From NCBI GenBank assembly GCA_945947905.1, contig CAMEZO010000001.1, forward strand, positions 1 through 64,000: a stretch of DNA of 64,000 nucleotides, given 5' to 3'. Positions 46,689-50,466 of the stretch are shown in pieces; the first letter of the stretch is position 1; each line of letters starts with the position of its first letter. Source of the DNA: an uncultured bacterium. Lineage in GTDB: Bacteria; Verrucomicrobiota; Verrucomicrobiia; Verrucomicrobiales; Akkermansiaceae. A program made the translations under genes and the position numbers. Under the pieces are notes generated by a model that saw only the letters and a program-made list of their open reading frames with translations, did no database searches and was not told where the DNA came from.

Positions 46689-49364
46689 GTGGAGATCCGG
46701 TTGAGAGTTGAGGAGGACGGGGGGGCAAGTATTGAGCCGAGGGGGTGTGCGCCCCGCTTGGAGCGGGCCTTTGCAGCCTCGGTCGGGGCGGGGATGCTGG
46801 ATTTGCTGAGATTCGGGGTACCGATGGGAGCGGCACCGGTGCTGCAGTGGCTGCGGGATAAGGCAAGAGAGCGCCTGATGCGCTATCTACGCGCAGCCGG
46901 AAGGGGTGAGGAAGCCGCGGCCGTGCTCCCCCCGACGGCCGAGGAGGCGGCAGCCTGGACGGAAGCGATGCCTCCCTTGGCGGGGCAGGAGATGAGCGCA
47001 GGGCTGCTGGTCCGATGGTTCGGGAGCCTGGCCCCGGCTTTGGCACGCGCGGCGGAGAAGGAATGCTGTACCCCCGTGGAATGGCTCGGCAAACTGGGCG
47101 AGGGATGGCAGCAGCTGGGGCGCCTGTGCTTTCACTTGGCAGAAAATGCCGGTGAGGATGCACAGAATCGCCCCTTCGCCTTCTTGGCAACCTTCGTACA
47201 CAAGGTAGGCCCGGACGATAAGCCCCGCCACGCCCCCTTGGGATTGGCCGCGCGCCTTCTTGCCAATGACCATGCCGCCTTGAGCGACCTGCTGCGCCCC
47301 CTGAGACAATTAGCGGCTGAAGATGGATTCTGGTCTCAGGTGATCAACAGCGGGGACGTCTATAAACCCTGTGCTTGGGGACCGCAGCAAGCCTACGCCC
47401 TGCTGGAGGGCATGCCGCGTCTCGAGGCGGCAGGAATCGAGGTGCGCATGGTCAACCTGTGGAAAACCCGCCCACCCAAGGCTGAACTGGTCGTTACCAT
47501 GGACACCGACGACGGGGGCGGAAAACCCGACGGCGCACCATCTGTTAACATCAACTCCCTGGTACGCTTTGTGCCGCAGATTGCCCTGGGAGACCGTTAC
47601 CTGACCGATGAAGAGGTGGAACAGCTCCTGGCCGGAGACGACGGCCTAGTCCGCTTCCGCGGTGAGTGGGTGAGACTGAACCGCGAGCGCCTGGTGTGCC
47701 TGATGGAGAGCTGGCGCCGCGCCACACGCATGGCAGCCGGCGGAATTCCCCTGCTGACGGGTCTGCGCTATCTGCTGGGCAAACGCAGCGAGGCCCTGCC
47801 CCCGTTACCACCCCCGGAAGACGGACTGCGCTTAAAACTCGGAGAGCGCCTGACCCTCGCCCTCAGCAACCTGCACTTCGGCAATATCCGCCCGCTGTTA
47901 CCCGACGCTCTGCACCGCACCCTGCGACACTACCAAGAGGAGGGCGTGCGCTTTCTGCTGAACGTCACGGAAAGCGGCTTCGGGGCCTGCCTGGCCGATG
48001 ACATGGGCTTGGGCAAAACCCTGCAGGTCATCAGCTGGCTGGTGCACCTGCACGGAGCCCGCGAGCTGGACCACGGAGCCGCCTTGGTGGTGGCCCCGGC
48101 CTCCCTGATTACCAACTGGCAGGATGAGCTGAACCGCTTTGCCCCGCAGCTCCGAACCCTGATTCTGCACCCCTATGCCCTGAGCCGCACGGAAGTCGAC
48201 ACCCTACATCGCACCCCGGAGAAGCTCCTGGCCCGGGCACATGTTGCCCTGACAACCTACGGCATGGTGACACGCCTCGAGCGCCTCCCACGCTGCCCCC
48301 TCCCTGCCCTGGTTCTCGACGAAGCACAGGCCATCAAGAACGCCGGCTCACAGCGCACACAAGCGGTACTCCGCCTGCAAGCCTCGGCTCGGCGGCGCGT
48401 GGCCCTGACCGGCACCCCTGTGGAGAACTCTCTGATGGAACTGCACAGCCTCTTCAGCTTTCTGACCCCCGGACTGCTGGGCAACGAGAAGGAATTTGCC
48501 ACCATGGTGCGGGAGATGGGGAGCGACTACACCCCCCTGCGGCGCTTGGTACGCCCCTTCATGCTGCGCAGACTGAAGAGCGACCCCGCACTCCTGCCGG
48601 AGCTTCCCCCCAAAACCGAGCAAGCCGCTTATTGCCTGCTTACCCCTGAACAAACCCGCCTCTACGCCCGCGAAGTCGACAACCTGCGCGCTGTCCTTGC
48701 CGAACCGGACCCGCAAACGCGACTGGCCCTCGTTTTACCCATTCTGGGCAAATTCAAGCAAATCTGCAACCACCCCGCCCAGTACCTGGGGGAAAACTAC
48801 TACGACCCGGAAAAAAGCGGCAAAATGCAACGTCTGGGCCACCTGGCAAAAAACATCGCCGCCGCGGGAGACTGCTGCCTGGTGTTTACCCAATACCGCA
48901 GCATCATCGAGCCCCTGCACGACTACCTGGAAGGCATCTTCGGCTCGCCCGGACTCTGCCTGCACGGCGGCACCGGACTGGAAGAACGACGAGCCATGGT
49001 GGAAGCCTTCCGAGACCCGCGCGGCCCCCGATTCTTCATTCTCTCCCTGCGCGCCGGCGGCACAGGCCTCACCCTCACCCGAGCCCGCCACGTCATCCAC
49101 TTCGACCGCTGGTGGAACCCGGCCGTGGAGAACCAAGCCAGCGACCGCGCCTACCGCATCGGGCAAAAAAATCCCGTCGTTGTTCACCCTCTCATCTGCC
49201 GTGGTACTATCGAGGAAAACATCCACCGCATGATTGAGCGGAAGAAAGCCCTCGCCGACGCCCTGTTATCCGGCGGACTGGAAAAACTGCTGCTGAACCT
49301 CTCGACAGAGGAGATTCTGGGGATGGTAGGCGCCCCCATGAACGGCGCAGAGTGTTCATTTTGA
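46689..49364 (+). CDS. SNF2/Rad54-family DEAD-like helicase
   Basis: An 891-residue Swi2/Snf2 ATPase that translocates on double-stranded DNA or remodels nucleoprotein. An N-terminal region of about 400 residues has no clear domain. The ATPase core follows: RHYQEEGVRFLLN, Walker A LADDMGLGKTLQVISWL, Walker B VLDEAQAIKN, ALTGTPVENSLMELHSLF. The second RecA lobe has FTQYRSII, SLRAGGTGLTLTRA, FDRWWNPAVENQASDRAYRIGQ. This matches bacterial HepA/RapA-like and YwqA-type proteins. The GTG start is chosen because the promoter -10 ends 6 nt before it. A hairpin with a short T run follows the stop. Confidence 0.92.
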   Translation: MEIRLRVEEDGGASIEPRGCAPRLERAFAASVGAGMLDLLRFGVPMGAAPVLQWLRDKARERLMRYLRAAGRGEEAAAVLPPTAEEAAAWTEAMPPLAGQEMSAGLLVRWFGSLAPALARAAEKECCTPVEWLGKLGEGWQQLGRLCFHLAENAGEDAQNRPFAFLATFVHKVGPDDKPRHAPLGLAARLLANDHAALSDLLRPLRQLAAEDGFWSQVINSGDVYKPCAWGPQQAYALLEGMPRLEAAGIEVRMVNLWKTRPPKAELVVTMDTDDGGGKPDGAPSVNINSLVRFVPQIALGDRYLTDEEVEQLLAGDDGLVRFRGEWVRLNRERLVCLMESWRRATRMAAGGIPLLTGLRYLLGKRSEALPPLPPPEDGLRLKLGERLTLALSNLHFGNIRPLLPDALHRTLRHYQEEGVRFLLNVTESGFGACLADDMGLGKTLQVISWLVHLHGARELDHGAALVVAPASLITNWQDELNRFAPQLRTLILHPYALSRTEVDTLHRTPEKLLARAHVALTTYGMVTRLERLPRCPLPALVLDEAQAIKNAGSQRTQAVLRLQASARRRVALTGTPVENSLMELHSLFSFLTPGLLGNEKEFATMVREMGSDYTPLRRLVRPFMLRRLKSDPALLPELPPKTEQAAYCLLTPEQTRLYAREVDNLRAVLAEPDPQTRLALVLPILGKFKQICNHPAQYLGENYYDPEKSGKMQRLGHLAKNIAAAGDCCLVFTQYRSIIEPLHDYLEGIFGSPGLCLHGGTGLEERRAMVEAFRDPRGPRFFILSLRAGGTGLTLTRARHVIHFDRWWNPAVENQASDRAYRIGQKNPVVVHPLICRGTIEENIHRMIERKKALADALLSGGLEKLLLNLSTEEILGMVGAPMNGAECSF

Positions 49365-49397
49365 GACCGGGTGGTCAAATTTTATTAACCACCTCCC

Positions 49398-49416
49398 ATC
49401 CCCGAATGGGGATTTT
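49398..49416 (+). terminator. Short hairpin after the SNF2 gene
   Basis: ATCCCC (49398-49403) pairs with GGGGAT (49408-49413), followed by TTT. It separates the SNF2 gene from the sigma-54 promoter downstream. Confidence 0.55.
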
Positions 49417-49472
49417 CATCCCAAAAGGGACTAAAATCGGCTCTAATCCGCGTTTTTCGGGCTATTTTGGAA

Positions 49473-49490
49473 TTGGCACGGAATTTGCAC
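49473..49490 (+). promoter_or_regulatory. Near-perfect sigma-54 (RpoN) promoter
   Basis: TTGGCACGGAATTTGCAC matches the sigma-54 consensus YTGGCACGrNNNTTGCW at every defined position. The -24 GG is at 49475-49476 and the -12 GC at 49487-49488, the required 12-bp offset. Transcription should start near 49500, about 32 nt before the ATG of the small gene at 49532. Such promoters need an AAA+ enhancer-binding activator, none of which is in the window. Confidence 0.8.
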
Positions 49491-49531
49491 AAAAGGAAGC
49501 AGCGAGGCGAACAAACTCGCGACTCACTATT

Positions 49532-49834
49532 ATGGCTAAGATCTACAAATACGATTTCGAGAAACTGCAGAGGGCCCTTCGCAAGATGAGCGAGGAGGCC
49601 CGCGCGGACCTGCTGATGGACATCATCGACCTGCAGCTTCCTGCCCTGCAGGAATGCAGCGACGTCGACCCGGATGACGAGCCGCTCCTCAACTCACTGT
49701 CCATGGTGATTGAGGAATCATGCATCACCATCCACCTCAACGTTTGCTTCCCCATGTCGGGGCTGCTGAACCTGGAGGCCGATCTGGAGCTGACCCCCGC
49801 AGGGCAAAGCAGATGGTGCAACCTGTCCGCCTAG
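49532..49834 (+). CDS. Small acidic protein behind a sigma-54 promoter, function unknown
   Basis: A 100-residue soluble protein that I do not recognise. The N-terminal half is helical and charged (YDFEKLQRALRKMSEEARADLL), with a Leu-rich helix (MDIIDLQLPALQ) and an acidic turn (DVDPDDEP). The C-terminal half alternates hydrophobic residues (SMVIEESCITIHLNVCFPM, LNLEADLEL) and is probably a beta-sheet. I chose MAKIYKYDF at 49532 as start because the frame before it runs through the terminator and the sigma-54 promoter. It is convergent with the methyltransferase gene. Its regulation by sigma-54 suggests a condition-specific role such as nitrogen or envelope stress, which is inference. Confidence 0.75.
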   Translation: MAKIYKYDFEKLQRALRKMSEEARADLLMDIIDLQLPALQECSDVDPDDEPLLNSLSMVIEESCITIHLNVCFPMSGLLNLEADLELTPAGQSRWCNLSA

Positions 49835-49848
49835 CGAAGCCCGGGGCG

Positions 49849-50466
49849 CTACTTACGAGCGACCAAGCAGACACGTCCGGAGCCCTGCTGCAGGTGGCAC
49901 TGCGCCGCCTGCAGCCCGGCCCCCGTGGCGAAAGCGACCAGCTCCTCCGGCGTATAAACGCGCATTCCCTTGATACGCCGGGCAGCCTCCGGACAGCGAT
50001 CGGGATCGCAGCAATCCAGGCATATCATCAGGCCGGCCCCGGGCTTCATGACCCGAGCGATCTCCTTCAGGTCCTCTGCCGGGCAAGGCCAAAAATACAG
50101 AGACTCACTGCTGGTGACAACATCAAAGGAGTCATCGGCAAAGGGTAAGGCAGAAACGCTACCCTCGACGGCATCCAACATGCCGTCACGCACCGCCCTG
50201 CGGTTCACCCGCAAGGTTTCTGCGACGGATTTGGGAGAATAATCCACGCCGGTGAGGTGCAACTGCGGGGCAAGCTCATGCACCATGCGCATCAGCCCCC
50301 CACCGCCGCACCCCACATCCAGCAAACGCCCGGTACGCGGCAGGTCGATATGCTCCAACCCGAACTGCCAGAGGGGGACGTGCTCGCGGTTCATGTTCAT
50401 GAACACCAAGAAACTCCCGAAAAATACCCCGGGCTTGGCGTAATTCTGCTTCCATTTCCAGTACAT
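49849..50466 (-). CDS. Class I SAM-dependent methyltransferase (UbiE-like)
   Basis: A 205-residue enzyme with the Rossmann-type SAM site LLDVGCGGGGLMRMV (motif I, about residues 48-62), TGVDYSPKSV (motif post-I), ALPFADDSFDVVTSSESLYFWP (motif II region) and VMKPGAGLMICLDC (motif III). The substrate is not predictable; similar proteins methylate small molecules. The C-terminus (GSGRVCLVARK) is typical. It lies downstream of tpiA, separated by a terminator hairpin. Confidence 0.88.
   Translation of the reverse strand: MYWKWKQNYAKPGVFFGSFLVFMNMNREHVPLWQFGLEHIDLPRTGRLLDVGCGGGGLMRMVHELAPQLHLTGVDYSPKSVAETLRVNRRAVRDGMLDAVEGSVSALPFADDSFDVVTSSESLYFWPCPAEDLKEIARVMKPGAGLMICLDCCDPDRCPEAARRIKGMRVYTPEELVAFATGAGLQAAQCHLQQGSGRVCLVARK

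Follow-up and report, generated by a model that had tools for sequence, protein, structure and literature searches.

A perfect -24/-12 element, TTGGCACGGAATTTGCA, lies 42 nt ahead of a 100-codon gene in an Akkermansia MAG, and its form, uniqueness and conservation make it very probable that the element is a working sigma-54 promoter from which this orphan gene is conditionally expressed. The window referred to below, i.e. the whole stretch of DNA that was analyzed, is the first 64 kb of a 68-kb contig of this MAG (label G000; 2.19 Mb in 171 contigs), and the genome was queried by pattern search and by family search. The features of the locus are collected in Table 1.

Table 1. Features of the orphan gene locus and its surroundings (positions in the 64-kb window)
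Feature	Position	Strand	Remarks
SNF2/DUF3670 helicase gene, upstream neighbor	46689-49364	+	PF00176, PF12419, PF00271
Dyad GGTGGTCAA-ATTTTA-TTAACCACC, putative site of upstream activation	49370-49393		9-bp arms, 1 mismatch
Terminator-like stem-loop, then T-rich tail	49394-49411	+	1 found vs 0.6 expected in shuffles
Sigma-54 promoter element	49473-49489	+	-24 TTGGCAC 49473-49479, 5-bp spacer, -12 TTGCA 49485-49489
Predicted 5' leader	49500-49531	+	start inferred from -12 spacing (sigma-54 promoter geometry)
Orphan gene, 100 aa	49532-49834	+	ORF from ATG 49532 to stop 49834; dN/dS 0.19
Class I SAM-dependent methyltransferase gene, convergent downstream neighbor	49849-50466	-	PF08241

The sigma-54 element upstream of the orphan gene

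Promoters dependent on sigma-54 (RpoN) have the consensus YTGGCACGNNNNTTGCW. The element shares with sigma-54 promoters in general the exact -24/-12 elements, the G following TGGCAC and the 5-bp spacer between TTGGCAC and TTGCA, and it differs from them in its target, which here is a clade-specific orphan gene. Searching the window for TTGGCACN5TTGCA with up to one mismatch returned this single match (shuffle mean of 0.40 at the same tolerance), as did the exact form of the shorter pattern TGGCACN5TTGCA. The original prediction of an RpoN-consensus match with exact -24/-12 spacing, some 40-60 bases before a small gene and the only such site in the 64 kb, is therefore borne out. In the whole 2.19-Mb genome there are only two exact matches to TTGGCACN5TTGCA, one before dnaK and one before the orphan gene, and the reversed-pattern control gives 0 matches; a third genomic match, to the shorter pattern only, falls within an ORF.

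The motif had also been expected upstream of orthologs, and before the sole ortholog found it is identical at 17/17 positions, while the remaining intergenic DNA is 49% identical and the leader 63%; these figures, like the conservation argument for both element and gene, come from a single ortholog comparison. The hairpin that had been noted between the SNF2 gene and the small gene corresponds to the terminator-like stem and T-rich tail of Table 1, which probably ends the SNF2 transcript, although its count is weak on its own. A possible weak hairpin in the predicted leader (49502-49506/49516-49520) has a fold z-score of -1.2, which is not significant.

RpoN and its activators

The genome encodes both rpoN and the enhancer-binding proteins for which the original prediction had called, a further likeness to sigma-54 systems in general. 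The rpoN gene was recognized in G000 (Sigma54_DBD, E 5.8e-53) and in 74 of the 76 Akkermansia genomes. Three bona fide sigma-54 activators of the AAA+ class are present in G000, each combining Sigma54_activat with a Fis-type HTH; the N-terminal part is a receiver domain in one, a GAF domain in another and unrecognized in the third, and the activator loops read in the sequences are GSFTGA, GAFTGA and GTFTGA. In one activator (L097:865-2400) the N-terminal part, ~200 residues long, has no counterpart among the Pfam families. Four weaker PF00158 matches were judged to be other AAA+ proteins.

Distribution of the promoter class in Akkermansia

Across 73 Akkermansia genomes the pattern TTGGCACN5TTGCA gave 74 matches vs 10 for the reversed pattern. 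These represent 72 distinct sites, of which 48 are distributed as follows: 29 lie before dnaK, 13 before the type III glutamine synthetase gene (GSIII), 3 before the glutamate synthase gene (gltB), 1 before a purF-like gene and 2 before the orphan gene and its ortholog. The other 24 are elsewhere, in coding or unrelated places; they look like chance matches, and their count is not far above the control. Because of the excess over the reversed pattern and the concentration before dnaK, GSIII and gltB, we take the sigma-54 promoter class to be real in this genus and to span stress and nitrogen genes. The GSIII element occurs in only part of the genus and is present in the sister species G049. 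Although 70/76 genomes encode a type III glutamine synthetase, the search of the G000 MAG yielded none, which may reflect an assembly gap. In one genome, a perfect element (L062, G053:C25:74191-74207) stands before a 106-codon ORF with several cysteines and histidines.

The upstream regions of dnaK carry a sigma-54-type element in all 68 Akkermansia loci compared (L145-L174, L205-L242; the G000 locus is L145/L006). It is perfect in 29, has one mismatch in another 29, two in 9 and three in 1, whereas shuffles of these regions lead one to expect 0.62 elements at two or fewer mismatches, and it sits 65-102 bp 5' of the start codon. Outside the genus but within the same class, 43 of 54 dnaK loci (L284, L293-L345) have YTGGCAYN5TTGCW at no more than two mismatches, vs 3.5 expected from mononucleotide shuffles. 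Given the 68/68 loci within and the 43/54 outside the genus, sigma-54 control of dnaK appears from these sequences to be widespread in the class. The predicted dnaK transcript starts at about GTRA and is followed by a short hairpin of varying sequence (mean z of -2.0 for 68 leaders, mononucleotide shuffles) that changes position within the alignment and is a possible mRNA stabilizer or means of translation control.

A 2025 survey (PMC12316311) reports that the heat-shock genes of Planctomycetota and Bacteroidota are enriched for sigma-54 and that rpoN itself is enriched in Verrucomicrobiia; Verrucomicrobiota go unnamed in its passage on chaperones. In Chlamydia, the hrcA-grpE-dnaK operon has tandem sigma-66/sigma-54 promoters (PMC8762339). 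The chaperone control predicted for Planctomycetota and Bacteroidota and the Chlamydia operon resemble the Akkermansia case in having dnaK behind a sigma-54 element, but in Akkermansia the element stands directly before dnaK at every one of the loci compared. None of the open-licence papers searched mentions dnaK, sigma-54 and Akkermansia together. The dnaK observation extends the known sigma-54 chaperone trend to another phylum.

Upstream dyads and the possible circuit of the orphan gene

The orphan gene was originally suggested to be a stress- or nitrogen-dependent factor. The suggestion is reasonable in view of the company that this class of promoter keeps in the genus, where it also stands before dnaK (stress) and before the genes for glutamine synthetase and glutamate synthase (nitrogen), but the dyads found upstream of both groups are absent here, so that stress and nitrogen are no more than candidate signals for this gene. 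Most dnaK promoters have, close upstream, one to three copies of dyads resembling TGCGRCAAAATGYCGCA (e.g. L006 ~1568-1630 and L146 ~1307-1370), a putative and probable activator binding site, while GSIII genes are preceded by dyads resembling TTTACA-N4-TGTAAA, usually in two copies (L108, L118, L123, L125, L129 and others).

Membership of the orphan gene in the dnaK protein-stress regulon, with an activator site that is degenerate or more distant, is an unlikely reading that draws on two observations: the only two perfect intergenic elements of G000 are those of dnaK and of the orphan gene, and the transcript start region of the ortholog, AAGGGTAGCGAAGC, resembles that of dnaK, AGGGGTAACGAAGC. 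It is opposed by the dyads, none of the TGCGRCAAAATGYCGCA type being found within 260 bp upstream of the orphan gene; the nearest such match has 4 mismatches and lies 658 bp off inside the SNF2 gene, a level of similarity also seen elsewhere in the window. We regard a place in the nitrogen branch, together with GSIII and glutamate synthase, as somewhat more doubtful still. The promoter class is the same at the 13 GSIII and 3 gltB distinct sites, the GSIII gene of G049 included, but no dyad of the TTTACA-N4-TGTAAA type is present upstream of the orphan gene.

What the orphan gene does have is a dyad of the form TGGTCA...TRACCA, GGTGGTCAAATTTTATTAACCACC, 103 bp before the element, and in the sister species there is a perfect dyad, ATGGTCATTTTATGACCAT, 111 bp before the element of the ortholog. 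Its position and form fit an upstream activating sequence, so that it is perhaps a candidate site of another activator. The spacing of the TGGTCA arms differs, however, being 8 bases here vs 5 in the sister species, and the dyad lies in the SNF2 terminator region, to which it could instead belong. With this difference in spacing, and since chance could at a modest level produce either repeat taken alone, we treat the dyad as a lead only. It is unlike the dyads seen upstream of other genes under sigma-54 in Akkermansia.

That the element is a chance match, the gene being transcribed by read-through from SNF2 or from an unrecognized promoter, is very improbable. About one third of the exact matches in the genus (24/72) do lie in coding or unrelated places, but this one is intergenic, with correct distance and orientation, and is kept exactly in the ortholog within DNA that has otherwise diverged; the reversed control leads to an expectation of only ~0.14 exact sites per genome. 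Read-through and another promoter are further opposed by the terminator-like stem upstream and by the finding that no sigma-70-like promoter was seen at 49300-49900.

The orphan gene and its product

The gene is present in 2 of the 76 Akkermansia genomes, which belong to two related gut Akkermansia species (the named relative carrying it is Akkermansia sp. SUG1064), and in both it lies between the SNF2 and methyltransferase genes; the latter has a 90% identical ortholog at the same place in G049. The two orthologous proteins are 77% identical and align gap-free over 100 codons, and the dN/dS of this two-species comparison indicates purifying selection. The dS of the orphan gene (0.73) is similar to those of the SNF2 (0.80) and methyltransferase (0.69) genes, and we therefore conclude that its inheritance has been vertical from the split of the two species onward. 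A relative of the SNF2 gene is present in the other Akkermansia genomes, where different genes follow it wherever the neighborhood is readable, and no diverged copy of the orphan gene was found among these downstream neighbors. A longer ORF starting at GTG 49352 (160 aa) was rejected as the gene because the open frame of the ortholog has 108 codons, the leader contains an indel and conservation starts at the ATG. Least probable of all is that the locus encodes a small RNA or leader with an incidental ORF, a reading that could appeal to the lack of any family or fold match and of a clear Shine-Dalgarno by eye but that is opposed by the dN/dS, the protein identity over 100 gap-free codons and the compact structure predicted with fair confidence.

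Beyond the one ortholog, no homologs were found in GTDB genomes, in the 76 Akkermansia and 195 family genomes, or in viral contigs, phages and plasmids; weak, partial matches such as L273 (E 0.013) were judged to be due to chance. The original view of the gene as unrecognized stands, as searches with the protein in Pfam, PHROG and PDB sequences gave no match, and those in NCBIfam and PADLOC gave only hits that fall short of the curated cut-off, the best of which (SigX at 13 bits, PDC-M20A at E 0.014) are too weak for use. In its length and in having no detectable homolog outside two species the protein is like other orphan (taxonomically restricted) small proteins; it differs from them in that its gene has a strong, conserved and dedicated promoter of a regulated class.

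The protein is acidic (11.3 kDa, computed pI 4.3), and no membrane segment or signal peptide is evident by eye. AlphaFold, run from the two sequences, predicts a compact fold (pLDDT 84, pTM 0.72) with helices at 9-18 and 21-42 followed by a four-stranded antiparallel sheet, and a structure search returned no significant match to solved or viral structures (best E 0.07 and 0.06, respectively). The product is most likely a small, soluble, acidic, clade-specific protein of ~11 kDa that is conditionally expressed. Its size, acidity and predicted fold lead us to guess, tentatively, that it may bind another cellular component as an accessory or adaptor protein and may not be an enzyme; any role is a guess, as the model was built from two sequences and none of the fold matches reaches significance.

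Proposed expression of the orphan gene and its meaning

Under the preferred reading, that of a working sigma-54 promoter, the orphan gene would form a single-gene transcription unit. RpoN-RNA polymerase would bind the element but remain inactive there until the promoter is melted by an AAA+ activator sitting upstream, and from this dependence it follows that expression of the gene would be confined to a particular condition. This activator probably differs from those of dnaK and glutamine synthetase, which we propose because the dyads of both are missing here, and its site may be the TGGTCA...TRACCA dyad. We infer promoter activity from the form and conservation of the element and from the presence of rpoN and activators. 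A broader view, which we hold to be possible but doubtful, is that sigma-54 in Akkermansia serves three or more circuits in parallel, which differ in their activators and dyads: one for dnaK (TGCGRCA/TGYCGCA), one for glutamine synthetase (TTTACA/TGTAAA) and, specific to one clade, a third (TGGTCA/TGACCA) that serves just one orphan protein, with a fold unseen in solved structures.

The analysis assigns a small gene without recognizable function to a class of regulated genes, and the condition of its expression thereby becomes testable. Akkermansia is abundant in the gut, but little is known of how its genes are regulated; the sequence comparisons suggest that dnaK, its main chaperone gene for stress, is preceded by a sigma-54 promoter and that the stress and nitrogen targets of sigma-54 in the genus bear distinct activator dyads.
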